Shown here one piece after another: positions 12,056 to 55,100 of a stretch of 64,000 bases of DNA. The position numbers and the translations under genes were made by a program. The notes below the pieces were generated by a model, which did no database searches, was not told where the DNA came from, and was given only the letters and a program-made list of their open reading frames with translations. This DNA is from Gordius sp. MW1 (Eukaryota > Nematomorpha > Gordioida > Gordea > Gordiidae). Each line of letters begins with the position of its first letter. Within the stretch, counting starts at the first letter, position 1. The stretch lies in assembly GCA_964036665.1 (NCBI GenBank), contig OZ038526.1, positions 5,642,001 through 5,706,000 of the forward strand, written 5' to 3'.

Positions 12056-12224
12056 TCAATATGAATGAACACCATAAACTAATAGACTGTTCATTATACG
12101 TACACACGTACAGAAAAAGTGATGCCAATTTTGACCGCCATTTGTAAGCACTACAACGAGAGAGTCTATTCTAACGTTATAATGAAATTCTATATATACT
12201 CTCTATCTTTTACCCTCTTTCGGG

Positions 12225-13075
12225 GGTGTTTTGCCCCCCCCCTAATTTTTTACCCTCTTTTTGATGCGGGGGAGAGGGGGGGGCAGGGGGTGTTTTGCCC
12301 CCCCCCCCCCAATTCTATACCCTCTTTCTGATGCGGGGAAGAGGGGGGCAGGGGAGTGTTTTACCCCCCCCCCCTTATTTTTTACCCGCTTTCTCACCCA
12401 GGGAGGGGGGCGGGGGTGTTTTACCCCCCCCCCCCCCCCCCACTAATTTTTTACCCTCTTTCTCACCCAAGGAAGGGGGGGGGGGGGTGTTTTGCCCCCC
12501 CCCCTAATTTTTTACCCTCTTTCGGATGCGGGGGAGAGGGGGGGGGCAGGGGGTGTTTTGCCCCCCCCCACCAATTTTTTACCCTCTTTCTGATGCGGGG
12601 AAGAGGGGGGCAGGGGAGTGTTTTACCCCCCCCCCCCCCCCCTTATTTTTTACCCGCTTTCTCACCCAGGGAGGGGGGCGGGGGTGTTTTACCCCCCCCC
12701 CCCCACTAATTTTTTACCCTCTTTCTCACCCAAGGAAGGGGGGGGGGGTGTTTTGCCCCCCCCCCTAATTTTTTACCCTCTTTCGGATGCGGGGGAGAGG
12801 GGGGGGCAGGGGGTGTTTTGCCCCCCCCCCCCCACCAATTTTTTACCCTCTTTCTGATGCGGGGGAGAGGGGGGGCAGGAAGGTGTTTTGCCCCCCCCTA
12901 ATTATTACCCTCTTTTTCACCCAGGGAGGGGGGGGGGGGTGTTTCCCCCCCCCCTCTAATTTTTTACCCTCTTTCTGATGCGGGGGAGAGGGGGGGCAGG
13001 GGGTGTTTTGCCCCCCTCCCTAATTTTTTACCCTCTTTCTGATGCAGGGGAGATGGGGGGGGGGGGGGGGTGATA
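12225..13075. repeat. minisatellite of about 65-80-bp G-run/C-run units
   Basis: The unit is roughly TTTTTTACCCTCTTTC, a GATGCGGGG or CACCCAGGG word, a G-run, GGTGTTTTGC, then a C-run of 8-18. About a dozen units are present, with homopolymer length varying most. The many Pro/Gly/Phe reading frames here are artefacts of the repeat. Confidence 0.85.
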
Positions 13076-13184
13076 GTCAATTTTAAAAAAAAAAGAGATA
13101 AATTTCAATAGAATTATGACATTTGTCACCACGGTGACCGCAAAAATTCACAAAATATTTTGAAAGGGTTAAAAAGGGCTTTCC

Positions 13185-13580
13185 GGCCCCCCCCCCCGGG
13201 TGACAAAGAGGGTAAAAAATAAGGAGAGGAGCGAATCCCCCCCCCCTCTCTCCCGCATCAGGAAGAGGGTAAAAATTTGGGGGGGGGGGGGAGGCAAAAC
13301 ACCCCCTCCCCTCCCGCCCCGGGTGAGAAAGAGGGTGAAAAATTAGGGGGGGCAAAACACCCCCCTTCCCTCCCCGGGCGAGAAAGAGGGTAAAAAATAG
13401 GGGGGGGGGCAAAACACCCCCTGCCCCCCCCCCCTCTCCCCCGCATCAGAAAGAGGGTAAAAAATTAGGGGGGGCAAAACACCCCCCTGCCCCCCCTCTC
13501 CCTTGCATCAGAAAGAGGGTAAAAAATTAGTTGGGGAAACACCCCCCCTCCCCGGGTGAGAAAGAGGGTAAAAAATAAAG
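13185..13580. repeat. inverted counterpart of the 12.2-13.1 kb minisatellite
   Basis: The same unit occurs in reverse complement (GAGAAAGAGGGTAAAAAAT, a G-run, GCAAAACACCCCC). Together with 12,225-13,075 it makes a long inverted repeat around a unique centre at about 13,080-13,180. Confidence 0.8.
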
Positions 13581-15597: not shown

Positions 15598-15985
15598 CGC
15601 CCTTCGGGCGTAACTGGGGCAAAACACCCCCACTCCCTCTGGTGGGAAAAAGGTAAAAAATAAGGGGGGGGGGCAAAACACTCCCCCTCTCCTCTGGTCA
15701 GAAAGAGGGTAAAAAATAAGGAGGGGGGGCAAACTACCCCCCCCCCCCTCCCCTCTGGTGAGAAATAGGGTTAAAAAAAAGGGGGGGGGGGAGGCAAAAC
15801 ACCCCCCCCCCTCCTCCCCTCTCGTGAGAAAGAGATTAAAAAATAGGGGGGGGGGGGGCAAAACACCCCCCCCCCTCCCCTCTGGTGAGAAAGAGGGTTA
15901 AAAATAAGGGGGGGGGGCAAAACACACCCCAACCCCTCTGGTGAAAAAGAGGGTAAAAAAGGGGGGGGGCAACCAACAGGACAAA
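15598..15985. repeat. second G-run/C-run minisatellite array
   Basis: This is a block of GGGGGGGCAAAACACCCCC, then CTCTGGTGAGAAAGAGGGT, then AAAAAATAA units, related to 13,185-13,580. It is preceded by a hairpin CGCCCTTCGGGCG plus TAACTGGGGC, which resembles the end of the element at 7,560. Confidence 0.8.
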
Positions 15986-21973: not shown

Positions 21974-24900
21974 ATGATGGAAATTCCACATTTTCCAATA
22001 GTTGTGCCACAGAAACATAGTGAAGCTGCTTTTAAAATATTGTTATCTACTATAAAACCTCAGTGGCCCCCAGAGAAAATTATTATAAAATATTTTACTA
22101 AAGGTAATTATTGTAATATAGATTTTTGGTTAAATTTTTAAGTTAATTGTACAATAAAGTTTCTTGTTAATTGTTATTAAATTTCATAAATTTAAATAAT
22201 TCTGTGTGAAAAGTCCTTTTATAGCAATGAGCATTTTAATTGTATATGTATTAGTTTTAAAGGTTTGTAGCATTTAAAAGAGATTTAAATTAAAGATGAT
22301 ATTCTCTTATCAGGCACCACTAATACTATTATCAGTGCTTCCTTGGTCTCGGTGTCCCCTGAGTGTAGCATTGATGACACATACTACAATCACTGCACCC
22401 ATCCAACAGTTGATGCTGTCTTGGTTAGGGTCTATGGCAACTGCACAGAAGCTCTCATAGATCGAACCCAAGAAATACAAAATATGGTGGCCATGTGGGC
22501 CTTAGGTTTTGGCTCTCAATTGTACTGTACTTTTGAAAATGGTTTATGTTATGGCTATGCCCCAGGTGTTACAGTTAATATCAAAAGTGTCCGAGATCTG
22601 AATGTGTATCCTCTAATAGCCAAGACATTGGCACAAATGCATTGTGCTTTTAGAGATAGATCCTCACTCCCAAAAGTTAATAAAACAGTAACAGCAAACT
22701 CTTTTGCAATTCATAATCTTGATTGCTGCAGCCAAAGTCTTCCTCAACCTTCCCTGTTTATCACAATGAAAAAATGGGCAAATCTTTTGATCCCATTCCT
22801 AACCCACACCAATGGAGAATGCAATAACTCAACCAAAGCTTCCCTTATATCTACAAATTCCAACCCAAAGTAAGGACCAAATTGCATTTACTCAATTCAT
22901 TTATTTAAAAAGATCTAGCTTTTTAAATAAATTGCATAGCAATTAATAAAAAAAATTGAATAATTTTTTAAGATAGGGAAATCAAGTATTGACTTAACTT
23001 AGTTTTCATTAATGGTTTTTACCTAATTATTATTAGATATCTTTTTATGACATCATAACAGATGTATATTATATACACTTTTACATCTATATGGGCGTAG
23101 CCAGGATTGTATTTAGAGGGTAGCAATAATGATTTAGGGAGGGCAAAACGATAATTTTTAGTAATTTTAGGCATAATCATATTAAAGTTTGAAGATTTTT
23201 TGGGTTGACCCTCCCTGGCCGCCCATGCAACAATATATTTTTTTTAAATGTATCAATATGTTTATTTGACGTAAGAACATTATAAAAACGAAGTGTTAAT
23301 ATTGGAAATATATCGAGCGGGTATCAAACAAAATCAAAATTTATGCATTAAACGTGCTTGTTTTTGGTGGGCCCACAGCGACGTTTGAAACCAATCCCAT
23401 AATATTAAAAAAAAATTTAAAGTCAATTTTACGATTTTTCTCCATGTTTTACCAATAACCAATTTAAACCCTTTTCATGGCCATTTACATTCCCTTAGCT
23501 TTCCATCGCTCCACTCAGCCTCTGGCCATGATAGATACACCTTGATTGATTGCCCCATAATGCCTTGGCACCTGCTTTCCATCCATGCAATTAACCATTT
23601 GCTTTCCCCAACTCGATTAAGCCCTATATATTAAAATCTCTTGTTTTTATAAGAATGTGATATGTAAGTACAGTCAAACGAAACTTCTTAATCGCAAATC
23701 GGATTATCGCGAAAATCTTTTAATCGCGAATTTAACCGCCATTTTGTTTTTTTAAACGATAATATTAACAAAAACATCGTTTATTGACAAATCGCTTAAT
23801 AGTACAATATCGGATATTCACAAACATTTTCGAGTCCTTAAATCAACCATATAATTAAATAAAATATCGTTTTATTGCGAAGCGTAAGAAATGAATATTT
23901 AATATAATGTACATTACATATACTTTTATTCCCATCGTTTAATCGCGAATTATCTTAAACGGTTTTGACTGTATATCATAAAATTACAAAAGATGGTTGG
24001 TTAAATTTCGGATGTTAATTTACTCATGAAAAATTTAGTATTAAATGGAAGCAAAAAATTTATTCGTGGTCGCATTAATAAGACAATAACTGTCAAAATT
24101 GGGGGTTTATAAAATCGAATTCACGGTATAAGTAGAGGCTATAGCTTATTTAATTTTTTTTTAAATATAATTGATTTATTTGAATTTGAAAAGCTAAATC
24201 TAATAGATGACATGAAATATAGGGTGCCCTATCAACTCGCCGAAAACCATCTCGCCGAATTTAATGTCCCCCGGTTAAAAAAGGTCCCCTAATTTAAAAT
24301 CGTCCCCCATTAACCAATCTCAACCAATCACAAAATGTCCCCCGTGAATTCGGCGAGATGGTTTTCGGCAAGTTGACGGGCCACCGAAATATAGAAGGGG
24401 GATAAATTATAATATAACTTAGTGCTACAGCTCGAAACTTGGCTTCTTCTCCTCTTCTAGACTGGAGTATTTCATCTACATCATAAATCTAAATTAGCGT
24501 GGTAGATTAAATTGTAAGATTTTGAATCATTTTGGCACGTTAATAAGAGTGTAGTCAAAGCCATGATAAAAAACTTTTTTGCCTCCTACCAAGAAGTATT
24601 AGGGTAAACGATGCCTTAATGTTATTGTATAATTTTCTTAAATTTGTTTCATTTGCTATTCCTTTTCGTTGTTGTTGTTTTTTCGTTTTAATGTGCCCAA
24701 TTTTACATTTCACTCGAGTTCATTTATATATTTTGCACGCCTTTTGTCATACCATAGACGCTCGTGGCCATGGGCGTAGCCAAGGGGGGGGGAGGGGCGG
24801 CTGCCCCCCTCGAAATCCCAAAAATTTGTCGAATTTCATTAAAACTATGGCCAAAATTTCATAAAAGGATCATTTTGCCCCTCCTTGAATCATTGTTGCC

Positions 24901-26795
24901 CCGCTCTAATTCCAATGCTGGCTACGCCCATGCTCGTGGCTGAGGTCTCCATAATTTATGACTTTGTTATGCAAGCACACAAAATTGTGTTGTGTTGTAC
25001 GTAATGCCATCAAAAATGTCATGATTTGTTATTTAACTCTGCTCCCTAAGCAGTAATAACGTCATAATATTGTGAGTTGAATTGTCGTGCTTTGTTTTAG
25101 TTACGCCGATGGCGGGAACAGGCGCGCGAAAAGGATATTGGCTAGCCGGGCCTAAGAAGTGGCTGAAAGAGTAATTTATTTGAAAGATCTTTTTGGATTT
25201 TGTTAGGCTTAGACGCTAGAAAATGTCAACTGTGAATAAACAATACTTGAGTCCTGACGGCAAAGTAGTGCAAGGTAGATTTTTTTTGACCAGACTTGAC
25301 TTGGGCTATATCAAAAAATTTAACCCAATCCAACCATATAATTTTTATTACAATGGCTACCCCCCTTCCCCGCTCCCTAACTCATTAAATTCATCATCAT
25401 ATTTTTAATCGAGAAATAATTAAACTTAGCATTGTGACTAAAATAATTCAATCAAACTTTGTTTTTGAAAATTTTATTATCAAAATTGGAAAAAATGAAA
25501 TCAAGCGTTGATTTTTGTAACCTAAATTTAAGCTGAAATAATTAGTCTTAGATACGAAATCGACAAAATATTTTATAAGTTGGGTTATGGGTGACTCAGC
25601 TCTGTTTGGAGGTTACTAAAAATTTAGTTTTTAATTCATAACACGTTTAAAGACACTCAATTTTATTCTAAGGAGTTTAAGTGCTACTGGTAGCATAGAA
25701 AATGGTTTAGAATTTTAACACTTTTATGCAATTTTTCGATGAAATAGTTCTTGTCGGAATTTTTACAAAACATTTTCCCCTAACACCTAGGGAGCATTTG
25801 CTCAGCCAACTGCCGGTAGACCCGTGGGTCGAAATTGAGTATTTGGAAGACACCCTGAGGCCCCTCAAATCGCCCGTCGTATTTTGTCACAACGATCTTT
25901 TGCTTGACAACATAATATACAACCCGGACACGGGAAAGGTGACATTCATAGATTTGGAGTACGGCGACTTCAATTACCAAGCCTTCGACATAGCTCACTT
26001 CTTTTGCGAATTTGCGGGTAGGCTCATATGACTATATGGACATTTTAGTTTAATCAGCTGTAACTTTCTTGAATAAATTAATCATTTAAATGTGCAAAAA
26101 ACAGACATATGTTGGTAAACACTTAAATTGGTAGCAAACATACTTAAACTATGTGAAGCATGGTCGTAGCCAAGGGGGGACAGGGAGGGGCGGCTGGTCC
26201 CCTCTTAATACAAAAATTTGTTGAAATTTATTAAAATTATGGCTAAAAATTCAAAAAATGTTCATTTTACTCCTCCTAATTCATTATTGCTCCCCTCTAA
26301 TTCGAATGCTGGCTACGTCCATGATGTGAAGCATTAGATGAACTCGCTTCGTTGCGATACCGATATCTAATTACTTATTATGAAATGAGAAGAATTAACA
26401 GATATTTAAAATCCATATTTTAGATCATTTTTACAATTTAGTTAAGTGTAAGAGCGTGTGAAATTTTAGGAATGGAAAAGGTGGACTATGGTTTGTTTCC
26501 CGAACGCGCCTACCGCGTCGAATGGCTCACCGTGTATTGGAGGGAATGGCGAGCCCTGAACCGGTCGCAAGATGCGGTCCAGCCTGAGCCGGATAGCCCG
26601 GAGGAAAGGAGAGAAATCGAAAGGCTTAGCGCTCAAGTAGATCGTTTCACGCTAGCCCCTCACCTGTACTGGGCCATATGGGCTATACTTCAAAGTCGAG
26701 TTTCGGATAAGACGTTCGATTACTTCTCTTACGCCAAAATCCGGTTGGCCGAATATGCCAAGATCAAGGCAGATCCATCCGTGCTGGAAACATGA
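21974..26795 (+). CDS. etnk: ethanolamine kinase (choline/ethanolamine kinase family), 4 exons
   Basis: It phosphorylates ethanolamine with ATP, the first step of the CDP-ethanolamine route to phosphatidylethanolamine, in the cytosol (family knowledge). Exons: 21974-22103, 22314-22869, 25791-26017, 26470-26795. All phases match and give 412 codons plus TGA. The junction residues read GTTNTI, matching the family's glycine-rich G-(I/T)-TN nucleotide loop. Further motifs are LVRVYGN, LYCTFENGLCYG, Brenner's motif CHNDLLLDNIIYN (about residues 261-273, catalytic Asp) and the choline-kinase motif FIDLEYGDFNYQAFDIAHFF (about 281-300). The end ALAS.HF.WG.WA-like segment is LAPHLYWAIWAILQ. It aligns better with ethanolamine than choline kinases by eye, though substrate choice is inferred. 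The start chosen is the MM pair at 21974; an upstream 5' exon cannot be excluded. Intron 2 (2.9 kb) holds several MITEs. Confidence 0.93.
23093..23226. mobile_element. MITE of the GGGCGTAGCC family, diverged
   Basis: The left end ATGGGCGTAGCCAGG and the right end CCCTGGCCGCCCATG are inverted repeats. Internal GGGCAAAACGATAATTTTTA matches the family. No clear target duplication. It lies in kinase intron 2. Confidence 0.65.
23671..23971. mobile_element. pogo/Tigger-like MITE with TA target duplication
   Basis: The left end CAGTCAAACGAAACTTCTTA and the right end CTTAAACGGTTTTGACTG are flanked by TA on both sides. CAGT-type ends with repeated TTAATCGCGAAT words are typical of pogo-type Tc1/mariner elements (family knowledge). 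At 301 bp it is non-autonomous. It lies in kinase intron 2. Confidence 0.8.
24222..24385. mobile_element. 164-bp MITE with 40-bp TIRs and perfect 8-bp TSD
   Basis: The ends carry CGCCGAAAACCATCTCGCCG in inverted orientation within TIRs of about 40 bp. GAAATATA flanks both sides (24,214-24,221 and 24,386-24,393). The interior has repeated GTCCCCC words. It is hAT-like by duplication length. Confidence 0.85.
24769..24932. mobile_element. MITE of the CATGGGCGTAGCC family, perfect 8-bp TSD
   Basis: It begins CATGGGCGTAGCCAAGG and ends TGGCTACGCCCATG. CTCGTGGC flanks both ends. The interior has CGGCTGCCCCCC and two TTGCCCC words. It lies in kinase intron 2. Confidence 0.88.
26159..26323. mobile_element. 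MITE of the CATGGGCGTAGCC family, perfect 8-bp TSD
   Basis: It begins CATGGTCGTAGCCAAGG and ends GCTGGCTACGTCCATG. ATGTGAAG flanks both sides (26,151-26,158 and 26,324-26,331). It lies in the last kinase intron, about 150 bp before the final exon. Confidence 0.85.
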
Positions 26796-28924: not shown

Positions 28925-31900
28925 TTAAGAGTAAAAAGTTAGAACGCTTTGCTGATTGCCCCTGACCAAGAGGATGGGGGGTTTCAGATCGCACGTGATC
29001 ATTTCCAGCCACGACATGTAAAGAGCTGAAGGGCACGAACGCTTGCGTGGAATGGGTAAGGTCCTAAAATGTCATTTAATAGAAATACAATTGTTAAAAA
29101 GACAAAGGTATTTTAAGATTAAAACAAAATGGCTTGCGTTTATTTAAGACATTTTTCATGGTTGCTAAAATTTTGGGGGACATACTAAGATGGAGCGGAT
29201 AACGAGTTATTGTATTTGTCAACCGTAACTATTGGGAAATAATTTGTTGGTAAGGGATGGGCCACTCCATCGCGCCTGCGGATGTTCGTGTAAAAAACTA
29301 GGTTCAGGCAGCACCCACGAACAAATTATTATATTAGTGGGTGGATTTGGTCAAAATCGTTCAAACTAATCTGCTGTCAATTTAAGGTCCTGGCCCATCA
29401 AGGTTTACTCTGAATTAGTTTAGGGTAAAAATGAGAATCAAATTAAATTTAAAAAGGGTCGGGGTTGTCATAGAAGACCTCTACAGCTCATTCCATATCA
29501 ATTAAATGCCCAAATTGTGTTCATAATAGAAAACCTTTGTGTGCTAGTAATATAGATTAAGAACGACAAATGAACATGCTATAACTTAGTGCAATTATTT
29601 TTAATTGCTATGCAATTTATGGGCTCGTTTTTTGGTGTCCGTTGTCCGATGTCTGTCCGTTACCCTCCCTATCTATTTGCATTTGGTATATTAGGTTATC
29701 GCTTTTTTAAATTAATGCATGAGAAAGAGGTGCCCCACCCCTCATCTCTATCTCCCTCGCTGTGTTATTTTTAATTGCTATGCATAAGAGGTGCCCCACC
29801 CCTCATCTCTATCTCCCTCGCTGTGTTATATATAAGATTTGTTAAATTATCTATTATATAAACTTAAATAAAAGTTGTTTACTTTTAATTGCTATGCAAT
29901 TTAACTAGTTATATAATAAGCATAAATAAAAGTTGTTTACTTTTAATTGCTATGCAATTTAACTAGTTTTTGTTATATAATAAACATAGATAAAAGTTGT
30001 TTACTTTTAATGCTATGCAATTTAACTAGTTATATAATAAACATAAATAAAAGTTGTTTACTTTTTAATTGCTATGCAATTTAACTAGTTTTGGGGTTAG
30101 AATCCCGGAGTTTTTTTTGACTCTTATGATTGTTCTTGTTACTATCATTGATAATAAGAATTTTTGGCCGTCCGCTGGCTGCTGACCAATGAAAAAAATG
30201 ACCATTGGCCAAAATGTGAATCTAAATTATTTTTTTCGTTTTTTTTGACTATTATGATTGTTCCTGTTTCTACCATTGCTATTATGACTTTTTGGCCGTC
30301 CGCTGGCTGCTGACCAATGTTATATAATAAACATAAATAAAAGGCTATGCAATTTAACTAGTTTTTGGGTTAGAATCCCGGAGTTTTTTTGACTCTTATG
30401 ATTGTTCTTGTTACTATCATTGATAATAAGACTTTTTGGCCGTCCGTTGGCTGCTGACCAATGAAAAAAATGACCATTGGCCAAAATGTGAATCCAAGTT
30501 TATTTTTTCATTTTTTTGACTATTATGATTGTTCCTGTTACTACCATTGCTATTATGATTTTCTGGCCGTCCGCTGGCTCCTGACCGATGGAAAAAATGA
30601 CCATTGGCCAAAATGTGAATCGAAATTATTTTTTTCGTTTTTTTTGACTATTATGATTGTTCCTGTTCCTACCATTGCTATTATGACTTTTTGGCCGTCC
30701 GCTGGCTGCTGACCAATGGAATAAAATGACCATTGGCCAAAATGTAATTCGAAAACTTTTTTTTCCTTTTTTTTTTACTATTATGAATTTATATCCGCTT
30801 TTACCGTGTCCTGGCTGCTGACCAATGGAAAAAAATGACCATTGGCCAAAATGTGATTCGAATTTTTTTTTTCTCGTTTTTTTTACTGTTATGAATTTAT
30901 ATCCACTTTTACCGTGTGCTGGCTGCTGACCAATGGAAAAAAATGACCATTGGCCGAAGTGAGCATCAAAATTTTTTTTTCCGTTTTTTTGGCTATCATT
31001 GACTTATAGAGTATCTGTGGGTACTGACCAATAGAGAAAAAGTGACCATTGGCCAAATTTTTGATTTTTTTAATTAAAAATGTTCAAATTCAACAAAAAA
31101 TTTCTCCCAACAATTCTGCAAATTCTTAACATTGTGTTGTTTTATAATATAATGTTTGTTAGACCCATAATCACTAAAGGCCATAAAAACTAATGTAATA
31201 CGCAACTAGATGCAAACACTAAATCTAACCCTTGCCTATATTACATTTTGCCGTTATTACATTTTGCCTATAATGGAAAATTTGTATAAATAATTTATTA
31301 ATCATTAGGCATTTAATACCCCCCTATAGGCATTCTCGCCCCTTCCCACCTTTCTCGCCCATAAATTGCATAGCAAATATGATACATTTATACGAAGTAC
31401 AGATGAGTCGTCCCCCCTTCCCTTCCCCTCTTCCCTTCCCCTCTTCCCTTCCCTTCTCCCCCTTCCCACGAGGGCCGAAGGCCCGAGTTTTTAAGTACCT
31501 AACTATCTTATAAAATGGCACAATGTTCAAAAAAACAAAACCTATCAATAAGTACCACGAAGAATGTATTTTTTAAAGTATAATTAACAACATCCCTGTT
31601 TTATCGCCCTCTGTGAGAACCTATTATGTCAATAACTAAGTAAATGGTAATTATAACCCCAAACGCAATTTTAAGCATAATAAGCTATATTAAAGTGAAG
31701 TTTAAAGCGGGCATTAACATGAATATTATGTTGGCGTTGGATGAATGTTGCCTTAGCATTTCGTGTAAGCGAATGTGACGGAACGTTTGGCCCTGGTTAG
31801 CTGCGTATTCAGTGTCCGTTATCAAACCTGGTTGGTATTTGGGATTATCCGTCGTGTCGACACGATACTTTTCCACAATATTTTCGAATTTGGTAATTCT

Positions 31901-34182: not shown

Positions 34183-37100
34183 CTAAAGGCGTAAAATCGC
34201 AAAATAATACAATAAAAACACCATATATGTCTTCTTATAACAGATAGGGTTAATAAGGGTCCAGACCAAATCATATATACCTCCGTCATCAAAAAGCCAC
34301 CAAACGTCGATGGTTCCCTGCATATTTTTGTGGCGAAAACGGTTGATGATAGCCCTTTTTTCAAAACTCCATAGGGCTGGGGCCGTTGCATTGGGCGCTG
34401 AATTTTTGCCTTGCGAATTTGTATGATTCCCTTCATTTTCGGACACGCGGGCTTTGATTTTAGAAACGATCGCTTTCGAGTTCTCGCCAGAATTTAATAG
34501 CTGTGATTTTGGCTTGGCTCTCAACCCCTTTATTATCAATGAATCGTCGGAGCGCCGACGCAAGAACAAAGTCATTTTACTCCGCTGCTCAACCTTAGGT
34601 CGATTAATAGTGTTGTTAGCGCCCGGACTATCCACTTTAGGAGCGGTTAGGTTTAGCATGCTGGTCGTTTTGGTATTTAGGCCATCGCACCTAAGTGGCG
34701 CCTTTGTAGTATTTGGCTGGTTAAACTTTTTCGCCAACGCCATATTTAACGACCTCATATCCTTCAAATTGAAGCCCGTCTTATAACCATTCGCAGCTAG
34801 CTCTGGTTCGACACCATCTATCGCTTCAACCGAAGCCAACGGCGTAGGGTTCATATAATCAGGTCCCAGGCCGTAACCTACCAGCTGATCAGCTTTAGTG
34901 TAACGCAACCGACTAGGCACGAGATCGGGTTTGAGCGAGGGCTTAGACCCCTGGCGATCCTTTACCTTCGTATTACCTTGGCCTGTTTCTTGGCCAGATG
35001 GGATGAAATAATCGTTATCGATACCCTGAGCGAAGTCGAGGTAAAGCTCATCGTTCATGTCACCTAGTGATAGTGTGACGGCGAAAGGATGTGAAACATT
35101 AAACTCAGATATGTTCAATGCATTCAATAATAAAGTTGCTTGTGGTTCCTTAGGACTGATAAAGAAAGAAGGAGAAAAGTGGTTAACATATTTTGAGGCT
35201 ACATGAGTTCAACGGAAAATAGATGATTTAAATTATGGCATAATAAGAGAAGAACTAAGCCATATTTACAAGGTTTAATAAACTTATATTAACATTTATA
35301 GGCTACTTAGTTTGGCCTTTATTCAAAATAAGTGGTTTTAGTTGACTAGAACATAACAATAAAATATTTAAAAAACTTTGGTAGTTATTATAACAAATTA
35401 AGTTAAAACATTGATTGATCCGCACTTTTTATAAAATAGCCCGAAGGTATATTTAGTTTAAATATCCGGCAATATTGCACATTATAAGTGGGATTTAAGA
35501 GATGTAAACATGGGCGTAGCCAGGGGAGGCAGGAGCGACCGCCCTCCCCCACATGACGAAAAAAAAATTCCAATGCAAAAACCCTTAAAAATTAAAAAAA
35601 ATATGTTTTGCCCCTCCCTAATTGAACCTTTAAACGTTTCGTCTTCTCCCCTAATCCAAAATCTGGCTACGCCCATGGATGTAAAACTAAGGTTGGATTA
35701 CTTTTTTATTGTATTAGTGTAAAATTTAACCATTTTCAAAAAAAAAATTAAACAATTTAGATAAAATATTTGTCTTCACTGTAATAAGCATAGTTATGGA
35801 ACAAATGCCATATACTATATTAAAACGAGCCCAGAGTAGTTTTGTGACATCGCTACCTGTTGAGGACATAGAACTCGCAGATGACGAAGTTTGGGCAAAG
35901 AAAGTCGAAGTGGGCAAAGACTTGCGTCGACTCTTCTTGGCCGGCTGTTGCTCATAGTGTGCGGAACGCTTATAAAATTCGACCGTCATTTTAAGCTTAT
36001 TACGCTTGGTTACGGGCCAACCCTGGGTCAAGGTTTTAGGCAGGGTTGAGGGTCTTCCTTGTTGGCTCCTCGCCACGGTTCGTTTATGATTTTCTAGGCC
36101 CATAGGGATTTCCTTTTGGCATCTTTTATTGCTTCCCCCGATCCCCAAAATTTGACAGACCCGTTTTATGGTGGTGTGCAGAGGCGACAGGAATTTGGAA
36201 CCTGATATATATATTGATGGTCGAAAAAAAACATAGTAACCTTTAAACGAAAAAACGTTATAAAGCGTCAAGCTGCCAAAAATTTTTGCACAAAAGATTT
36301 TATGAAATATAATTTTAATCAGCGTTATAAGACTAGACGCGGCTTGTATTACCAGGCGTCTGAAACGCATTTCCAGTGCTGTCGGTAACGGAGGCGTTGA
36401 CATTTATTTTTCTGAGATCGGGTGATGTTTCTGAAGATTTAAATTCGAAATTAGGATGGCTCGTGCTGTTACGCTTAAGCTGGGGCATATTTTGCATTAA
36501 TGTTAGGAGGGAATGGCCAAAGCTGGAACTGGGTCGGAGTTTAGAAGGTCCGAAGGAAGGATGAGATGGTTTGTCGACCTTGCCCAAATCTTTGAGGCAC
36601 CAAGTCATACCCGGGATTTTGCTGCGGATCATGAGTTGCTTGACTAAGTTGCAGTTCGATTTCCCGGTCGAAACGCCTAATTTTAAATTGCTAGTGTCAC
36701 TCTCTCGGATGACAATGGTTGTGGGCAGGTAGGTCTCCGTCATTTCATCCGATTGGTGACGTTGAACATACTGGTCGCGGTAAATATCCGATAAAGCTTT
36801 ACCCGATAGCTGAATAGGTCCAAAACCGTTCTTTTTAACGATGGTTGCTGGCTTAGGTGATGTGTCAGAATTTGATCTCAAAGTATTCCCTAAGGGAATA
36901 TTTAAGGTGTAATTCTTGAAAGTTCGACAATTTCAGTAAAATCTATCACATTCGCAATACAGACCTATTTGCCTTAATATGGTTAAATTTAAACTTCTTA
37001 ATAAATGGATGTCATGATATATCACCTTTTCATCAATATTGCACGAAACTATTGATAAGATTCGATTCGACTAATGTATAATTGAGCACTATTGCCTGTT

Positions 37101-40100
37101 TATAACTTAATTGAAAAACGTTAAACATTTGTTAAATTTTAACTATATATATATAAGAGCTTACTTAAAACGGCTAAACAGTCTTATAAATGTTTCGAAT
37201 CGCTTAACGATCAACAATCAAAATGCAATCGAAAATTAACGATGTGGCGATTTTAAAATTTTGGAACTCCATCGCAACCTAAAAATATCGACTACAAGGG
37301 CTCACTGCCATTTTGGGGGACATTTTTAACCGTAGTGTCGGGGATTGAATTTGCCTCGACTATGGTTGTAAGGGCCAGGTCTTTGCCCCGATTAATTTTA
37401 TTCGGCATAACTTCGTCATCTTGTACGAATGAAGCATTACAGTAACTCTCTTTGTACTGGCACGCATCGTGGTAAGTGTTGCGACGCAACGGGACCACCT
37501 TTTTGACCTTTTTCGCCTTTTCGCCAAATAGCAAGTATGAACAGTCCAGGCCTTCTGACACCTTGAGGATGCCAACTGCCAGCCTCATGTCGAAGGCGTC
37601 GCTATTAATAAAACAAATGTATACTTTAAGAAACGAGTGTTATAAATAATAAGACGAGAGATGGGGGCGCACGGATAAATCGTGAATTAGTTTGTAAAAA
37701 GTGATGGAATTGTATTTCCGTAAAAACTGCGCATTTGTTTCGTTAACTAAATAAGTTTCCTCATTAGAAACTTCAAAAGCTTGATATAGCCTATATATTA
37801 GAAAATATAATTTTTCAAGATAACAAGCTTAATAATTATGTTCAACAAATTGCGTTAAACTGATAAACTAAAAGGCTAAAAACGAAATTTAGTTATGAAA
37901 AATTATGGAGTTGTCGTATTGTGTGTAACTAAAATTAGAGTTTATTTTGTATGTTAAAAATATCATGACTTTATTAAAGCTAGATTGTTTATACTCTGTC
38001 GTGTCCTCCTATACAAATCCCCCACCCCCCACCGCACTGCTATACACACGCGTTTGTAATACCGTACTTGTTCGATCAAACCCCTCCCCCGTACTTATAT
38101 TCACAAAGGTTGTAAAACTGCCTATCTTACCCCCCCCCCCTCCTTCTTCCTATATACATTAATTGCAAGTTCATATCTTACTTGTGTAGGATACCCCTTT
38201 TGATCTTACACGCGTTAATTAATATAGCTCGTATTTTTACGACGTAGAATATATATATAACATCTGCGGTATTACTTGTACTGATTTTAGTATTTATGTC
38301 TACACAATCTCCCCTCCCTGGCCTTACAACTTCATATGTGGTACTTTTACTTTCCACTTTTGATTTCAAGTATTATGTTATTCACTCACTCTCGAATTCT
38401 TGTAACTTTTCTATAATATGAATAAATAAACTACAAATTGCGTTAAACTCAACATAACATTGGTGTCAGAATGAAAATTCCACTCCTAAGTTGGTTAGAA
38501 ATAATTTGGAACAAATCTGGTTCCCCCCCCTCCCCTTCTGCTGAATGGCATAAATCATATTCTAGAGATTAAATTCTTATAACTGGAGAAGAACAACTAG
38601 CAAATTATCACCTGATTGCTTCAAAACCTAAGGGAAAACTAAATCGTACTCAAGCGTCAGCCATCTTAGTGCTAATAAAGCTATAAATAAGGTCGGATCT
38701 GTGCCATGACCATAATTGTTAAGGAAGCGGGTGTCTCCTTAATTTTCAGATGAGGGCAAGGTTTCAGATAATGAACTAGTTCCTCATGTATGGAGGTAAA
38801 GGCATATAAAAATGCTGAGAATTCCTCATTTTAGATGGATCGTAGGACAAGAGTATCCGATAACAAATGGCAATACGCACCGAATGAAGGATTATTCCCA
38901 CAAGCCATAAATGAGGTATTTATAATTACATCCCGTTGGCCATGAATACTTAATTCTTCAAAAGAGAAGACCACATGATTCATTGAAGGTTACACATGTC
39001 GTTTATAAAAATGTTGTATAGTTAAGTTAGTATAATATTTTTGATCTATTATATTTTTACTATTAATATTGTAAACCCATAATCAGATCGTTGTTGATAA
39101 AAACCATCCAATTGCATTAGATCAATTATTCTTTTGTCTACCCCTGGCCCTAATTTTTTTTGAAAAAGGATGGTGTTGTAACCGGAGATTTTTTCCCAAC
39201 CCCCCATTACAAGATTCTTTTGATCTTACGCGCCGCGCCGTACAACCATAGACTACATAGACTGCTCATGTCATATATTCCATATGGCAAATTGTGTGTG
39301 AAATTTGCCTCCATTTTGATGAACACTACCGTCCTATATCACATAATGGCGTTTTGCGCTGTGCCGTTTTTTTCGAACAGGAGAGGTAAAGAAAAAAGGT
39401 TTTGATTCCATAAATAAGTAAGATATTACTAAATATATGATATTTTTAAAAAATTTATTATTGACACATTTCATAAAAATTAAAAACTGTAACGATATTA
39501 AAATTTTTTAAAAATATCATATATTTAGTAATATCTTACCTATTTATGGAATCAAAACCTTTTTTCTTTACCTCTCCTGTTCGAAAAAAACGGCAGAGCG
39601 CAAAACGCCATTATGTGATATAGGACGGTAGTGTTCATCAAAATGGCGGAAAAAAACACACACATTTTATACCGTGATGAGCAGTCTATGTAGTCTATGC
39701 GTACAACATCTGTATTTCCACCACTATTCTTTTACATTTAATTTCTAGTACGCGTATGTTATTTCCCCCCCCCCCAACGCGCTTATACTTATTTATTTAT
39801 TTCTCCCTATATATGATTGTTTATCAACATGAATACGCATCAGTGATTTTGATAACGCGTTTCGATTCATTAATAATTATGATATTTTCCGTCTTAGGAT
39901 ATACAATAAAAATGTAGCTCCTGATTCTCCCTTCTAACCACTCCCTTTGGGGAGGACAACCTGTAAAGCATTAGATGTGTCTTAAATGCCTTATGATCGC
40001 CCCAATATCTACCAATATCTTCCCTCAATTATTAAAATAGATTCCTTCAAATTCTTAATTCATATCCTTTAGGGATGTGATACTTACTGTATAACGCTAA

Positions 40101-43100
40101 AGTATTGTTCCACGTCCTTAATGTCGACCGAACGCCAGTCACTTTTGAAGCCCATCATAATGATATTAGGAGTCAAGCGCCCCAGTCCCGAAACCTAATA
40201 CACACACAAACGTTTTAAAATGTAATAACAATTATATGAAAAAAATCACATTTCATATAAATCATAAATTACAAAATGGTTAAATTGGTATTACCCTATT
40301 CTAGCCCAAATCTTAAATTAAAACACTAATTTTATTTAAAAAAATACAATGTTATTGGCAATTATAAATATAATTTGTTAAAATATGTATAAAGATATTG
40401 ATAAAATTATTTTCAATGCTCGCTTAATTTATACTTCCATCAAAGAACGCACACCAGTTTTGAACGAGGGCGATATGGTACAATTGTAGAGGGCCTTGAG
40501 ATGCCTGTTTTTTAGTGACTTGTAAACGGCCCTGGTGTCTATGGGAAAAATCTGGTCGTCTATGTAGGGCTAATTAACAAACAAACAATCATATATAAAG
40601 GATTATAAAAATAAGCATTTTCACCTAGCATTGAAAATTTGGAAATACGTAAAAATCTCTTTTATCAAATTCGTCACCCTTTTGAATTGTCGGAATGAAA
40701 TTTCAAAATATTTCTGAAATGTTAAAAGGCTAAAATTTAAAATTAAAGAATGTGTAACAATCGAAGTGTCTTACTTTAATAACGTGCCCACATATAAGGA
40801 GGCTGATTTTTTTGGTGAACAAGTTGGCAAAGTCGACGAACGAAGGCCTAATCCTAGGGTCCCCAGTCAGAGCTAAGATTTGAGGCCTTTGAAATTAAAA
40901 TTGCTTTATAATGTTTATACACAACAAATTATTTGCTAAGTATTTTATTCATATTGCTAAGTATTTTTAGCGTCATTGCTAAGTATTTTATTCATTTGCT
41001 AAGTATTTAATTTGTTTGCTAAGTATTTAAATTAATGCTAAGTATTAAATTCAAATGCTAAGTATTTTATTCATTTGCTAAGTATTTAAATAAATTTTGC
41101 TAAGTATTTTATTGTTTTGCTAAGTATTTTATTTGTTTGCTAAGTATTTTAATATTTTGCTAAGTATTTAAATTATATGGTAAGTATTTAAATATATTAT
41201 GCTAAGTATTTAAATTATTGCTAAGTATTTAAATATATTATGCTAAGTATTTAAATTATTGCTAAGTATTTAAATATATTATGCTAAGTATTTAAATTAT
41301 TGCTAAGTATTTAAATAAATTGTGCCAAGCATTTAAATTATTTGCTAAGTATTTAAGTAAATTATGCTAAGTATATTATCTAGGTTTATAAATAAATTAT
41401 GCTAAGTAAAGATTTTATAAATTTAAACAAATAAAGCTGTCTGTTGATTTTAAATTTGTTTCAAATTTTGACTAATGAGGTCATGAAATTAAGTAATAAA
41501 AATGCAGTTTTTGAAGTTCTTGTCATTGATGCAGCCAGTGCAATTCATATTGCATTTAAAGCTGTTTTTGGGGATAAAATGGTTGTGGTATAGGGTTAGG
41601 GTTAGGGTTTATTGTAGTTGAATAAAATCTCTATCAATTATCCTATTGGCTATTTAGATTATTTTATATATGAAGTAATTATAGAACATGAAGGGTATTT
41701 CTTCACCTACAAATAAATAATCATAATTTTTTTATTCAAATCTAAAATAAATTATTTTTTATATTATAAAAATATAAAATTGAAATATTATATTTTTCAA
41801 CTATAAATTTTGGTAATTCATTAAAATAATTCCCATTAAAACTTAACTTCAAATTTCAACACTTTTTTGTGTCATAAATAAAACTTTGAATTAAAAAACT
41901 TTAATAACTTAGCACTTCAAAATAGAAAACCTAGCATTTTTAAAAATTAAACATTTTCTTTGAAATTATTACCATTAAAACTTTGTCCTTTTTAGCTTTA
42001 AAACCTTATTATCTTATATTTTTTTACAACTCAGCATTTTGATTAAAACTCATAATTTAAATTTTTTTAATAAAATACTTAGCATTTTAATAAAAAAACT
42101 TAGTATATGAAAATAAAAACTCTGCAATTTAATAATAAGAACGTAGCATTTAAAAATAGAAAACTTAGCATTTAAAAATAAAATACTTAGCATTTCCTTT
42201 AAAATACTTAGCATTTAAAATAAAATACTTAGCATTTCCTTTAAAATACTTAGCATTTTAAAATAAAATACTTAGCATTTAGATTAAAATACTTAGCATT
42301 TAATAATAAAATATTTAGCATTTAGATTAAAATACTTAGCATTTACATTAAAATACTTAGCATAAAATACTTAGCGTTTTTTAATAAAATACTTAGCACT
42401 TTAATTAAAATACTTAGCATAAATTACTTAGCAATTTGTAATTATTTACTTAGCAGTTAAATAACACCCATGTTTATATAGCACAGACCTTCTAAGTTAA
42501 AGTTAGATTAATTACACAGGTCTACAAAAAAATAATTTTGCACCTATAATTCTAATAGAGAATTTAAAGCTGAATAATAATATGTTTTTAGTTTTTTTTC
42601 CAAAACTTCCAGTTTTTTAGATTAGGTTGAAGTTGCAAAAATGCCCATTCTAACCTTTTTTGAGGCAATATTGCCACGGTATTTTTAATTTTGACTTAAA
42701 GAAATTTAATTTATTTCTTTATATTAAAGTGTCATCTAAAGGTCCATTTTGCTTTTTTTGCTTAATCCGTATATTTAAATTTATATGCCTTTCAAACCCC
42801 TATTCCTTATAAAAATTCGTCCCACTATGTCTGGTAAACGGAGTACATTAGAGATTTACTAACACATATCTCTCTCCCTTCACCTACTCTCCTCTTTTCT
42901 CCTCCACTCCCGCCCCCTTATGTGCTTGAAGAGATATGGGGGGCAGGAGTGGAAGAGATGGGGAAAGGGAGAGATTGATGTGTTGGTAAACATCGCATGT
43001 GTATTTTATGTACTCTAATGTACTCCGTTTTCTAGACATAGCGGGACGAATTTGATAAGAAGGGGTTTACGTAAACGCAAATAAATTTAAATATAAGTGT

Positions 43101-49100: not shown

Positions 49101-52100
49101 TAATGAATAAGTAAAAGAAACGATAGCCCCGATTGCCCCAGGGTGATCATTTCACTTTAAGTTAGGTTTAAAGATCATTAAATTCTTAATATCATATAGT
49201 TACACCTAAATCATATAAAAAAGTGGATTCTTTTTACTATAAAATTTGTTAAATGTTGAAGGAACACGTCATTTTTGAGTAATTTACAAAATTAAAAAAA
49301 GAGTTGGTTTAGCCCCGAAAAATCTTATTTTCTGTATAATTTTTTCCCATAAGAGTTAATCCAAAGCCCAATATGAGCCTTAATACTGTACATTTATAAT
49401 TCAAATTTGAGAGCAAAATAAATATAAATGACAAAATTATTTGAGAGGACGTCTATGACCTCGGTAAACATATAACCCCAGTCTCCCTTAATAAACTAAA
49501 CAGTGTCTTTAATAAATAATAAATACATGACGACCAACTTATAATGTTGTCGAAATATAAAATATAAATGAATTGCGCAAAATAAGTCAATGCACGGATC
49601 TAAAAATGATGGATTAAATGGCGAAATATAACCGGTGTAATGTGCAACAATATGGTGCCAATATGAGGAGCAAAGCTTACAAATCCATCGAAGACCAGTG
49701 TTACACTATGGAATTATGCATTTTAACACCACGGAAAAATAATTATTAAGACATGGTCATGAGAATAAATGACGGAGCTTGGGGTATACTAAGCTCGACC
49801 ATATGCCGGATGATTGTTTAAGAGCAAAAATGGTATCAATTTATGGCGGACTTGATTGCCTAAAATCGGCTAAGCTCGTATATATACTAAGGAGGGAAAG
49901 ACATTGAGGTGCCCCCCGGGAAGAGAGGAAGAGGACTACCTCGTGTTAAGCGGGAAGGGGAAGTGGATAAAGTTATGAAACCAAAGAAGACTAATCAGGA
50001 CATGGCCCTTACCCGATCCAGATGGAAGAAACTTCACGCCTTTGAGACGAAATACATGATAAAGAAGAAGATGAATATTACTTTATATTCCCATTCCATA
50101 CCAGCCAACGCAACTCCCAGTAAGAACACGACCGATATGCAACCAACTATGCGGGTCCAATTGATCGGGCTGATGCCGTACAACGTCCCAGTGCCTGTCT
50201 TCAGTTGCATAAATTTTAATGATCAAACATTTTCAGTATACCACAACAATCCAATTTAGATGGGGTCAATATGACCCCATATATTATAAAATCGTCATAA
50301 AAAGGACTAATTGAAATTCAATTTAATTATTAAGATAAAAATTATTGTTCATTTATATAAAATTAGAGGTAGTACTTTGCATGAACGAAGTAAAATTCAA
50401 CGAAGTGGTAAAATGCTCATAAATTTAAGCATTTTTGCTGAATATTTATGGATGTTAAGTTAAGTTAAGTTAAGGGGGGGGGCAGCTGCCTTCATGAAAT
50501 GCCCTGACTAAATGAGTCGTATTTTAAAAAATTAATTTATGATCACGAGCATTTTTGGTTAATTGTTATTGGCCCAGCGATAAATGTTAGTAAAATATGT
50601 TATACATATTTTTTTACATTAAAAGAATAAAAAGAGAAATGTTACTTGTATAATTTCGACGACAGCCTCAGCCAGACCCACAACATTTATGGAGACTGCT
50701 ATGACGCTGGCCAGGGAATATATGACGCCAATCGCACCACCAAACTCCGGCCCAAGGTTACGTGATATCATAAAGTAAGCGCCCCCTTGTATATTTAATT
50801 TTAAAAATATTTTTTCCCTAATGTTATATTTTTCATTTTGGTATGAAATATTTTTAAATAGAAAAGTCATAACAATAAATTTCGTACAAATTAATCACGT
50901 ATAAGCGGTCATGAGCCAATTATTGATTGGAAAATGGGGATAAGTGTACTAGCTTACAATAGCACTCTTTTTACTATAACCCCTAAAATGATAAGACACA
51001 TTTTTTGAAGGAGACTAACAAAAACTAAAGTAAAAAAGTGGTATGTAAATGCTCTTTGAATTTTTCACACGAATTAAGCCAAAGAGCGCTGTGTTTCTTA
51101 AGGCTTCAATTGAACAACTAAAAAATATTATAATTAGACAAATATTTCTGATTATAGAGTTTTACGCTGAACGTACTATGTTTTCCGTTTTTTCTAACGA
51201 ATGAGGTTAACGGGGCAAAAATAGCCTTTATAACTATTTTTGTGGTTATATTCCCACGCCATTAAAAACATATTTTTAATTATATTAATTGCTATGCAAT
51301 TTATGGGCTCGTTTTTGGTTGTCCGTTGTCCTCCCTATCTTTAAATTAATGCATAAGAGGTGTCCCACCCCTCATCTCTCTCTCCCTCGGTGTGTTATAT
51401 ATAAGATTTGTTAAATTATCTATTATATAATAAACATAAATAAAAGTTGTTTACTTTTAATTGCTATGCAATTTAACTAGTTATATAATAAACATAAATA
51501 AAAGTTGTTTACTTTTAATTGCTATGCAATTTAACTAGTTTTTGTTATATAATAAACATAGATAAAAGTTGTTTACTTTTAATGCTATGCAATTTAACTA
51601 GTTATATAATAAACATAAATAAAAGTTGTTTACTTTTAATTGCTATGCAATTTAACTAGTTTTGGGGTTAGAATCCCGGAGTTTTTTTGACTCTTATGAT
51701 TGTTCTTGTTACTATCATTGATAATAAGAATTTTTGGCCGTCCGCTGGCTCCTGACCAATGAAAAAAATGACCATTGGCCAAAATGTGAATCGAAATTAT
51801 TTTTTTCGTTTTTTTTGATTATTATGATTGTTCCTGTTTCTACCATTGCTATTATGACTTTTTGGCCGTCCGCTGGCTGCTGACCAATGTTATATAATAA
51901 ACATAAATAAAAGGCTATGCAATTTAACTAGTTTTTGGGTTAGAATCCCGGAGTTTTTTTGACTCTTCTGATTGTTCTTGTTACTATCATTGATAATAAG
52001 ACTTTTTGGCCGTCCGTTGGCTGCTGACCAATGAAAAAAATGACCATTGGCCAAAATGTGAATCGAAATTATTTTTTTCGTTTTTTTTTGACTATTATGA

Positions 52101-55100
52101 TTGTGTTACTACCATTGCTATTATGACTTTTTGGCCGTCCGCTGGCTCCTGACCGATGGAAAAAATGACCATTGGCCAAAATGTGAATCGAAATTATTTT
52201 TTTCGTTTTTTTTTTTTGACTATTATGATTGTTCCTGTTACTACCATTGCTATTATGACTTTTTGGCCGTCCGCTGGCTGCTGACCAATGGAATAAAATG
52301 ACCATTGGCCAAAATGTGATTCGAAAACTTTTTTTTCGTTTTTTTTTGACTATTATGAATTTATATCCACTTTTACCGTGTCCTGGCTGCTGACCAATGG
52401 AAAAAAATATTGGCCAAAATGTGATTCGAAAATTTTTTTTTCGTTTTTTTTACTCTTATGAATTTATATCCACTTTTACCGTGTGCTGGCTGCTGACCAA
52501 TGGAAAAAAATGACCATTGGCCAAAGTGAGCATCAAAATTTTTTTTTCCGTTTTTTTTGGCTATCATTGACTTATAGAGTATCTGTTGGTACTGACCAAT
52601 AGAGAAAAAGTGACCATTGGCCAAATTTTTGATTTTTTTAATTAAAAATTGTTCAAATTCAACAAAAAATTTCTCCCAACAATTCTGCAAATTCTTAACA
52701 TTGTGTTGTTTTATAATATAATGTTTGTTAGACCCATAATCACTAAAGGCCATAAAAACTAATGTAATACGCAACTAGAAGCAAACACTAAATCTAACCC
52801 TAACCCTTGCCTATATTACATTTTGCCTATATTACATTTTGCCTATAATGGAAAATTTGTATAAATAATTAATTAATCATTAGGCATTTAATACCCCCCT
52901 ATAGGCATTCTCGCCCCTTCCCACCTTTCTCGCCCATAAATTGCATAGCAAATATGATACATTTATACGAAGTACAGATGAGTCGTCCCCCCTTCCCTTC
53001 CCCTCTTCTCTTCCCTTCCCCTCTTCCCTTCCCTTCTCCCCCTTCCCACGAGGGCCGAAGGCCCGAGTTTTTATATAGTCCTATAGAGATAGACAGTTTA
53101 TTGATCTACAGAAAACCATAATTTTATTATTTGTTTCACCTCTACTTTCAGGTTTATTCGGTTGGAACCCCCACCCCCATTAAATTCCTCTTACTATGTA
53201 TTGAAAACAAAGTATAGTACATACTAGAGATTTGCAACGGACCTTTCTGTATTAAAAATTTAAAGCCCGGACCCGTCAAAATATTAAATTATAAGCCCGA
53301 GCTCGGCCCGTTACTACAAAACCCGAGCTCGGCCCGGGCTAGCAAATTTTTTTTATTCTTTTGTTGTTTAATTTTTTTACCGAGTGAACAATGTGTATGT
53401 GTTAAAAATGTTGTAAAAATAATAAATTAATAATTCCCGGTAAGATGAGTTCTTCTATCTTTTAAGAGGCGACCTACAAGAAAAACATTTTTTACAAGTA
53501 TCACTGAAAGATACATAAAACCATATAAGCCAAATAAACTTTTAAGGAACCTTATATAAGGTTATAATGTTTTTAATAAAGTTACTTGGTTGCTTTGCTT
53601 TTCCACATTTTAAATTTTTAGGTATTGATATAAAATAAAAAAGTGATATTTTACAAAAGTAACTTGAAGAAATAAATTTATAATTTGTTTTTAAATTTGT
53701 TAATGAGTTTATATCAGAGGTCAGATTTGTTAGAATTTTTCAGCCCGAACCCGCCCGGCCCGATTTTATAATTAATCTGCCCGCCCGAGCCCGCCCGAAC
53801 CCATCTAAGTGTCCGCCCGGGCCCGCCCGAATCGTTAAAGCTGCCCGAATTGCCCGGCCCGAAATATTAAATTTGCCCGTTAGTCCCGAATTTGTGAGGT
53901 CGCAAACACAGGTCGGATTTGTTAAAATTTTTCTGCCCAAACCCGGCCCGGTCTAAATTTTTAACTAAATTCCCCGCCTGAACCCTTCTAAGTGTCCGCT
54001 CAGCCATGCCCAAACCATTAGAGCTGCCCGGCCTTATTAATAAAATTTGCCCGTGACTAGAAATTATCCAATCCCAAAATCTTTTAACCACTATTACAAA
54101 ATAAGCATTAAATAAAGAACTATTGATCAGAACATATCTTTTATAATATAATATGAAAATTAAAAAATTTTTGATCTTGAGATAAACCAGTTAAACTAAT
54201 TTATTCGAAATAAAATAAAATTTAATTCTGAAGAAGTTAAAATTAGGATTTAGGACATTATATAAACGTACGATAAGGATTTAAGCGATAGAAAAAAATC
54301 TAGTCAAATTTATTATGGCCCAAAATTGTTTATAAGCGAATATTTCTTTTTTCGAGGAAAATCAATTTGATAAAATTTTTGGCATGCCCGAATTGCCCGA
54401 ATCTTATCAGCGTGCCCGCCCGGGCCCGTCCAAAAAGTAAAACTTAAGACAGTTGGGGCCGGGCAGCGGGCCGGGCCGGGCATTTCTGACCTCTGGTTTA
54501 TATATTAATAATCTTACATAATATTGAATTACTTTACTCAATATTGCTACAGACATAATTGCAAGGATGGGCAGCTGCCCTCCCCCCTCCAAATCCAAAA
54601 ATTCTTGATTTAAAAGACATTTTTTGCCCTACTTAAACTGTTTCCCTCTAGAGAGTGAGTCTATGTTAAGGCTATAAAAAATGGAATGGGCTACGGCCAT
54701 GGGATCACGTGTATAAATTATTTTTTACATTTCAAATGCGGGTTGAGGTATTGATGAATTAATGAACTAAGATGTAAATCTTAAGTTTCCTTGTTCATTT
54801 AATATACATAAAATAATTATAAATTAGAACATTATGAAACCACCTTCTTTTATACTAAATCTAATTGATTTTGTAACGGGCTCTGGCCTTAAATATATCT
54901 AGGCCCGGCCCGAGCTCATTAAGTAAAATTACGGCCCGTTCAGGCCCGGCCCGTTGGTTTATTTTTAAGCAGAAACCCGTCCAAGTCCGGCCCGCGGACC
55001 GGGCTATAGTACATACTACTATGCGATGTTTGCTTATACACTTAACTCTCTCCTTACTCTCTCCTCTCTTTTCCCTCTCCCTTTCCTCCACTTCCACAGC

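Follow-up and report, generated by a model that had tools for sequence, protein, structure and literature searches.

A giant, constrained linker insert in the C-terminal domain of an NKCC/NCC-type transporter gene of Gordius sp. MW1

The window analyzed here is a stretch of 64,000 nucleotides from the genome of Gordius sp. MW1 (assembly GCA_964036665.1, contig OZ038526.1, called C8 below; C8:5642001-5706000). Its minus strand carries a gene, g2, for an SLC12 cation-chloride cotransporter (CCC) of the sodium-dependent NKCC/NCC type, whose cell-side C-terminal domain (CTD) contains a loop of 623 residues between the conserved motifs SEGLD and TIDVWW. Subtraction on alignments gives lengths of 95 (human NKCC1), 77 (zebrafish NKCC1) and 48 residues (human NCC) for the equivalent interval. 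The initial annotation, made from the letters alone, had proposed a giant insert at this place in a loop that is short in relatives, and both points hold. The insert lies in the CTD linker, reads in phase, is coding-like and constrained, and occurs within one clade, which holds three of the six NKCC-type genes of the genome (g2 and its paralogues g3 and g6). Judged from the sequence evidence, it is genuine coding, in-frame sequence under purifying selection. We regard it as real and probably useful because sister genes carry it and selection has kept its frame.

The g2 model was built by chaining stop-to-stop frames, splice signals and phases from the exon of transmembrane segment 2 (TM2, 60458-60363) to the stop. 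It comprises 22 exons, from 60458 to the stop at 28925, and encodes 1422 residues. All introns are GT-AG, all junctions are in phase and there is no internal stop. A motif search of the window detected neither TM1 nor the N-terminus. The upstream half (37544-60458, minus strand) consists of 14 exons in consistent phases, from TM2 to 40194-40088, and of 58 bases at the start of exon A (37601-37544). The latter encode HDAFD...SEGLD, with which the first folded half of the CTD ends. The second folded half starts at the end of exon D (34281-34314, minus strand), where it matches the NKCC1, NCC and KCC structures. It continues through exons E-H (34182-34068, 33765-33679, 31898-31719 and 29063-28925, minus strand) to the stop, with PF03522 matched to its last profile position, 418.

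Both family domains are present in the model: PF00324 (AA_permease core) scores 267.6 bits and PF03522 (SLC12 C-terminal domain) 427.1 bits. The PF03522 match is split by the loop. Profile positions 1-155 stop about 30 residues into it, at model residue 645, and the match restarts with positions 159-418 from model residue 1153, 85 residues ahead of TIDVWW, leaving about 507 residues unmatched. Among solved relatives, human NKCC1 scores best at 465 bits, followed by NCC at 453, whereas KCC2 reaches at most 193. By these scores the gene belongs to the NKCC/NCC branch, to which it is nearer than to KCC, as the initial annotation had supposed. Human NKCC1 aligns over 449 residues, from exon 48395 through SEGLD. 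The available text of PMC4301019 describes a long extracellular loop between TM7 and TM8 in the NKCC/NCC branch. Exon 47836-47588 of g2 aligns in colinear fashion with residues 513-591 of human NKCC1.

The loop is encoded by the tail of exon A (37601-37306) and by exons B (36889-36353), C (36201-35857) and D (35063-34281), all on the minus strand. The loop part of exon A (37306-37543) contributes 79 codons and one base, and ends in phase 1 at GCA followed by the donor gtgagc, a site that both g3 and g6 retain. Exon B, with 537 nt and symmetric phase 1-1, contains a KRNST patch. Its splice sites are conserved in g3, where its counterpart measures 552 nt. Exon C (345 nt, also symmetric phase 1-1) contains the basic patch KKSRRKSLP; its acceptor at 36201 is conserved in g3 and g6, its donor in g3 only. 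The loop part of exon D (34315-35063), about 250 residues, contains an LRRRSDD patch and conserved islands of 20 and 16 residues. Its acceptor at 35063 is in phase and conserved in all three copies.

The four exons of the initial annotation stand, but its start for exon D, 35148, does not. The loop therefore has 623 residues and not about 650. Phase-1 acceptors near the start of exon D lie at 35198, 35138 and 35063. The codons that follow 35063 are conserved in g2, g3 and g6, as is the acceptor itself. More than about 36 bases upstream of it, there is no evident similarity to g3, and g6 shows one-base gaps. Four other acceptors were considered and rejected. That at 35148 is out of phase with the donor of exon C (35857) and likewise with that of exon B (36353), and the strong-looking 35155 clashes in phase with exon C. 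Acceptor 35198 scores higher on the splice profile of the gene itself (6.0 vs 3.3 for 35063) but is unmatched in g3. For exon C, 36240 scores higher (7.1 vs 1.8 for 36201), but it would change the frame in g3 and g6. For an additional exon that would join exon C to the acceptor 35155 there were 22 open candidates; none is needed because the conserved acceptor 35063 was found.

Exons B and C are both symmetric, so skipping either keeps the frame. With B and/or C skipped or retained, the loop would measure 623, 508, 444 or 329 residues. The short-loop paralogues of g2 show the same phase-1 intron that holds B and C in g2. Among the 20 acceptors of g2 outside exons C and D, the base at position -3 is T in 15, A in five and C in none; the acceptor of exon D has T, and the conserved acceptor of exon C is the sole CAG.

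Selection on the insert was estimated as the ratio of nonsynonymous to synonymous substitution rates (dN/dS), by the Nei-Gojobori method on tblastn codon alignments of g2 and g3. These cover 607 of the 623 loop codons; the other 16 residues fall in gaps, in three unaligned residues at the start of exon B and in split junction codons. For the loop, dS is 0.364, dN 0.151 and dN/dS 0.415 (bootstrap 95% interval 0.327-0.53). By exon, the ratio is 0.30 for A, 0.41 for B, 0.375 for C and 0.49 for D. Outside the loop it is 0.099 in the folded CTD and 0.153 in the transmembrane part. All eight exonic gaps between g2 and g3 are multiples of three (9 in A; 9, 9 and 3 in B; 6 in C; 3, 3 and 12 in D), compared with two of the 18 gaps in the A-B, B-C and D-E introns (the C-D intron was left out). 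Loop mismatches are distributed 96/85/131 over the three codon positions (p=0.004). The initial claim that the insert stays in phase over four exons and is unlikely to be retained intron is thus borne out by the exon chain, the dN/dS ratio and the gap lengths. Between g2 and g6, the ratio is 0.150 in the transmembrane part and 0.167 in the folded part. The corresponding loop value of 0.487 is given no weight because exon D of g6 is partly read out of frame.

Chance open frames were assessed in 40 simulated 64-kb sequences with the dinucleotide composition of the window and in 300 simulated 3-kb stretches with the composition of the exons themselves. The open frames of B (199 codons) and D (341 codons) both exceed the longest open reading frame (191 codons) in all 40 of the former. 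The maximum in the 3-kb stretches is 304 codons; 7 of the 300 reach 199 and none reaches 341. The synonymous codon score of the loop is 0.106 bits per codon, compared with 0.263 in the training exons, which were self-scored. The GC content at third codon positions is 0.504 in the loop and 0.533 in the training exons, and the introns have a GC content of 0.299. Single exons score weakly, at 0.06 to 0.17 bits per codon, and no conclusion was based on these values; for exon D, one antisense frame outscores the coding frame on codon usage.

The genome (211.8 Mb, 12 contigs) was searched for relatives of the gene. Only the best candidates were scored, so the copy counts are minimum values. There were 38 matches to PF03522 and 60 to a transmembrane/CTD query. 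They fell into six NKCC-type genes, apart from a few more distant matches on contigs C3 and C4, and the five genes other than g2 were mapped exon by exon. Five of the six are on C8 (g1 at 0.76M, g2 in the window, g3 at 5.73M, g4 at 6.38M and g5 at 9.97M), and g6 is on C6 at 2.52M. The tandem neighbor g3 has the orientation of g2 and is located some 30 kb upstream of it. The loop measures 621 residues in g3, 109 in both g1 and g5, and 185 in g4; the last three values take the longest phase-1 donor/acceptor pair of one intron and assume no unseen exon. With the insert exons as the query, the genome gave nine matches at E<=10, all of them within g2, g3 and g6. These three of the six NKCC-type genes carry the insert.

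A tree was calculated from the alignment spanning exon 48395 to SEGLD (LG+G4, ultrafast bootstrap), with human NKCC1 as the only outgroup. The insert-bearing genes, which share 87-89% identity, form one clade with a support of 100, and g5 joins next at 84. The simplest reading of this topology is a single gain of the insert on the stem of the g2/g3/g6 clade, after its split from the short-loop paralogues. As to the initial term "lineage-specific", the insert was found in a single clade within this genome, the one animal genome searched. Human NKCC1 falls outside all six NKCC-type genes, which form an expansion with five members on C8 and one on C6.

The source of the added sequence was also considered. 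Origin from a transposon or another gene was rejected, as the exons are unmatched elsewhere in the window or, in the best-candidate search, in the genome; an element resembling a miniature inverted-repeat transposable element (MITE) is intronic only. Internal duplication among B, C and D was likewise rejected, there being no match except one of 12 residues at E 0.9. No relatives were found among viral and prokaryote contigs.

The copy in g6 (C6:2516001-2536000) has recognizable exons A, C and D, and exon C is without the donor of g2. No match to exon B was found in g6. Exon D requires two frame changes and would contain seven stops in a single frame; a further stop interrupts the match of exon 48.6k. 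With no B, a lost C donor, frame changes in D and this stop, g6 looks decayed. This state would reflect a loss that is recent or else a loop that has been shortened and re-spliced.

The loop is rich in Ser (10.3%), Lys (9.6%), Leu (8.3%), Thr (7.7%) and Asn (7.2%). Relative to the folded CTD it has more Ser, Lys, Asn and Thr and less Ile, Val and Phe, and its net charge is +44. The charge-hydropathy score is -0.058 for the loop and +0.186 for the rest of the CTD. The loops of human NKCC1 (-0.058), g3 (-0.023), g1 (-0.089) and g5 (-0.221) all fall on the same side. From these composition scores, the loop is probably mostly disordered.

The insert was scanned for 16 patterns. The Arg/Lys-Ser/Thr patches mentioned in the initial annotation are present as four [RK][RK]x[ST] motifs (RRNT, KRNS, RRKS and RRRS). 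All four are kept in g3 (the triplet background is 0.352, and 0.352^4=0.015), and all three are kept in g6 where the exon exists. The pattern RxxSxP occurs three times, compared with 0.39 expected (4 of 500 shuffles); only RRKSLP, in exon C, is kept throughout g2, g3 and g6, where it is identical. We take RRKSLP to fit a 14-3-3-type pattern as well. The dileucine pattern [DE]xxxL[LI] has no match in the insert. Conservation between g2 and g3 is uneven, as judged by the variance of 20-residue windows (p=0.003).

We lean slightly towards the view that the insert is a disordered regulatory linker, controlled by basophilic kinases and possibly modular by exon skipping, which grew by exon gain and was then duplicated. 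The phase-1 exons B and C would have been gained in the phase-1 intron of the short CTD linker of an ancestral NKCC/NCC-type gene, and exon D would have been enlarged at its 5' side by about 200 extra codons. The direction of this change, a gain, is the one that the tree suggests. The gene would then have been duplicated after the enlargement. Its product would be a basic, mostly disordered cytosolic loop of 620 residues, retained in a permissive slot. PKA-like basophilic kinases would phosphorylate the conserved [RK][RK]x[ST] patches, and the phosphorylated loop or its partners may alter how the transporter is trafficked, its dimer state or its activity, as shorter segments, alternative or disordered, do in human NKCC1, NCC and KCC2. 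Skipping of the symmetric cassettes B and C could tune the length of the loop. Phosphorylation, partner binding, an effect on transport and exon skipping are what we infer for the product.

Several results weigh against this proposal. The dN/dS of the insert is four times the folded-domain value. The lack of a match to exon B in g6 and the frame breaks in its exon D indicate that the insert, or the g6 gene, is not indispensable. The disorder score of the loop is only moderately negative and equals that of the human loop, and six of 30 sliding windows are positive, on the folded side, among them model residues 856-896 and 1036-1096. The initial suggestion of an unstructured segment agrees with the overall composition, though not with these windows. 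The kinase-motif test is post hoc, the motif having been picked after inspection of the sequence as one among the 16 patterns. Nor is [RK][RK]x[ST] commoner than chance would give: 2.67 are expected for the 4 seen, and 141 of 500 shuffles contain at least as many. In g3, [ST]P is kept at three of six sites and R..[ST] at six of nine, against a pair background of 0.49.

A closely related view, compatible with the regulatory linker, is that the loop comes in modular isoforms. Exons B and C would be optional, like exon 21 of NKCC1, with the giant loop in some tissues and a 329-residue form as the housekeeping product. We give this a little less than an even chance. Both exons are 1-1 symmetric (B with 537 nt, C with 345 nt), so that every skip is in frame; human exon 21, 48 bp from c.2930, is also in phase 1; and B was not found in g6. 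However, symmetric exons also arise without alternative splicing, and the constraint on B and C (0.41 and 0.375) is no weaker than that on D (0.49).

The insert may instead be an entropic spacer in a linker that tolerates length. It would have grown by exon gain, its frame would be kept only because breaks would ruin the folded half that follows, and its sequence would matter little. The linker is already divergent. According to the available text of PMC7035313, human NKCC1 without residues 941-1000, a part of this linker, was purifiable and its membrane domain was solved; that construct also bore a loss-of-function mutation, and the structure did not resolve the cytosolic domain. The fourfold higher dN/dS relative to the folded CTD, the missing exon B match in g6 and the [S/T]P sites, which are not preferentially kept, point the same way. 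Against it, the upper bound of dN/dS, 0.53, is well under 1, and conservation is concentrated in islands (p=0.003), as well as at the basic patches. The best-kept common residues between g2 and g3 are D, E, G and R (0.77-0.86). We consider a pure spacer rather unlikely. The initial annotation had left platform and spacer side by side; constraint between folded-domain and neutral levels, together with uneven conservation, would favor some function.

A bolder form of the regulatory linker is that control has moved from the N-terminus, where it lies in vertebrates, to the C-terminal loop. The loop would then be the main control element of this clade, a phospho-switch of 620 residues that combines PKA-like with 14-3-3-like sites and optional exons, separating long-loop from short-loop paralogues in regulation or membrane sorting. 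We find this very doubtful.

More doubtful still is an undescribed folded or fold-on-binding module in the insert, with the islands of 20 and 16 residues in exon D as its core. In the islands, g2 and g3 agree at 18-19 of 20 residues, g6 largely keeps the islands of exon D, and the positive charge-hydropathy windows (6 of 30, including residues 856-896 and 1036-1096) would agree with such a fold. However, the insert has no Pfam match at E<=1 (exons B and C none at E<=5) and no PDB match at E<=1, and the top 20-residue window, with 19 of 20 identical, is reached in 62% of shuffles.

An artefact is highly improbable: the out-of-phase junction at 35148 in the initial annotation and the weak codon scores of single exons might suggest that introns were retained, that a gene is nested here or that the model is mis-joined, but the idea is largely contradicted by purifying selection, gaps in multiples of three and GT/AG sites and phase conserved in the paralogue. 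On these dN/dS values, gaps and splice sites, a retained intron or nested gene was rejected.

Some small segments of the same linker are regulatory in vertebrates. In human NKCC1, exon 21 (48 bp) undergoes alternative splicing, and Cl- influx falls when it is skipped or mutated, changes that are also linked to deafness; the exon has a dileucine sorting motif, although sorting does not depend on exon 21 alone (PMC9355526, PMC8612923, PMC7159186). From its start at c.2930 and its length, exon 21 comprises codons 977-993 and is phase 1-1 by arithmetic; it lies within the human linker, 928-1022. In g2, as in human and zebrafish NKCC1, a cytosolic linker joins the two CTD halves, and B and C are symmetric phase-1 exons like exon 21. 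However, the g2 loop has 623 residues, not 95 (human) or 77 (zebrafish), and exon 21 encodes only 16-17. The insert shows no sequence match (none in the PDB at E<=1) and lacks the dileucine pattern, so we equate the two only in place.

The available text on human NCC reports a variant with nine extra residues including S811, a PKA-like site governing T55/T60 phosphorylation (PMC6207291). By numbering, S811 would fall within the 48-residue linker, and these extra residues would occupy the same linker as the g2 insert. Unlike the insert, they number only nine, arise by use of a cryptic donor and, in that text, are limited to humans and higher primates; the solved form has the 48-residue loop.

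For KCC2, the part of the literature available describes a disordered, phospho-rich region of 134 residues between helices 8 and 9 of the CTD. It shares with the g2 insert a large size, a place in the CTD of a CCC transporter and, probably, disorder; unlike the insert, it has 134 residues and belongs to the KCC subfamily. We take it to sit elsewhere in the domain. In fungi, clade-defining coding insertions are in-frame, predicted-disordered and polar, reach more than 1,000 residues and lie outside structural domains and transmembrane segments, according to the abstract (PMC10104129). The g2 insert is likewise in-frame, predicted-disordered and polar, but the insertions belong to fungal proteomes and, as far as that abstract shows, to families other than this transporter family. 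A literature search whose coverage excluded most subscription journals found no report of a giant insertion in this linker.

The CTD linker of CCC transporters is the slot in which vertebrates place small regulatory exons, as with NKCC1 exon 21 (hereditary deafness) and NCC S811. In g2 this slot exceeds the human length more than sixfold, and purifying selection has acted on it in both tandem copies, while the loops of three paralogues in the same genome are short. The genome therefore amounts to a natural experiment, which could show what the linker can bear and whether dimer state, sorting or activity is under its control.

Other features of the window were noted. The C-D intron (35064-35856, minus strand) contains the MITE-like element, located by a repeat finder at 35509-35677, with 15-bp perfect terminal inverted repeats CATGGGCGTAGCCAG; a related stretch lies at 61238-61330, near the end of the window. 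One intron of g2 holds AT-rich arrays of a 20-21-bp repeat at 40929-41374 and 42069-42464, with the motif TACTTAGCA or its complement. Tandem repeats alike in look (unaligned), with units of about 58 and 103-130 bp, lie at 8741-9666, 29858-30990, 51416-52564 and 58872-59129; those at 29858-30990 and 51416-52564 are arranged alike. The plus strand has exons at 22289-26795 that we take, by eye, to resemble an ethanolamine/choline kinase. Minisatellites with C/G tracts at 12222-13553 and 15616-15960 consist of units of roughly 56-64 bp, with a single one of 122 bp, and leave long open frames.

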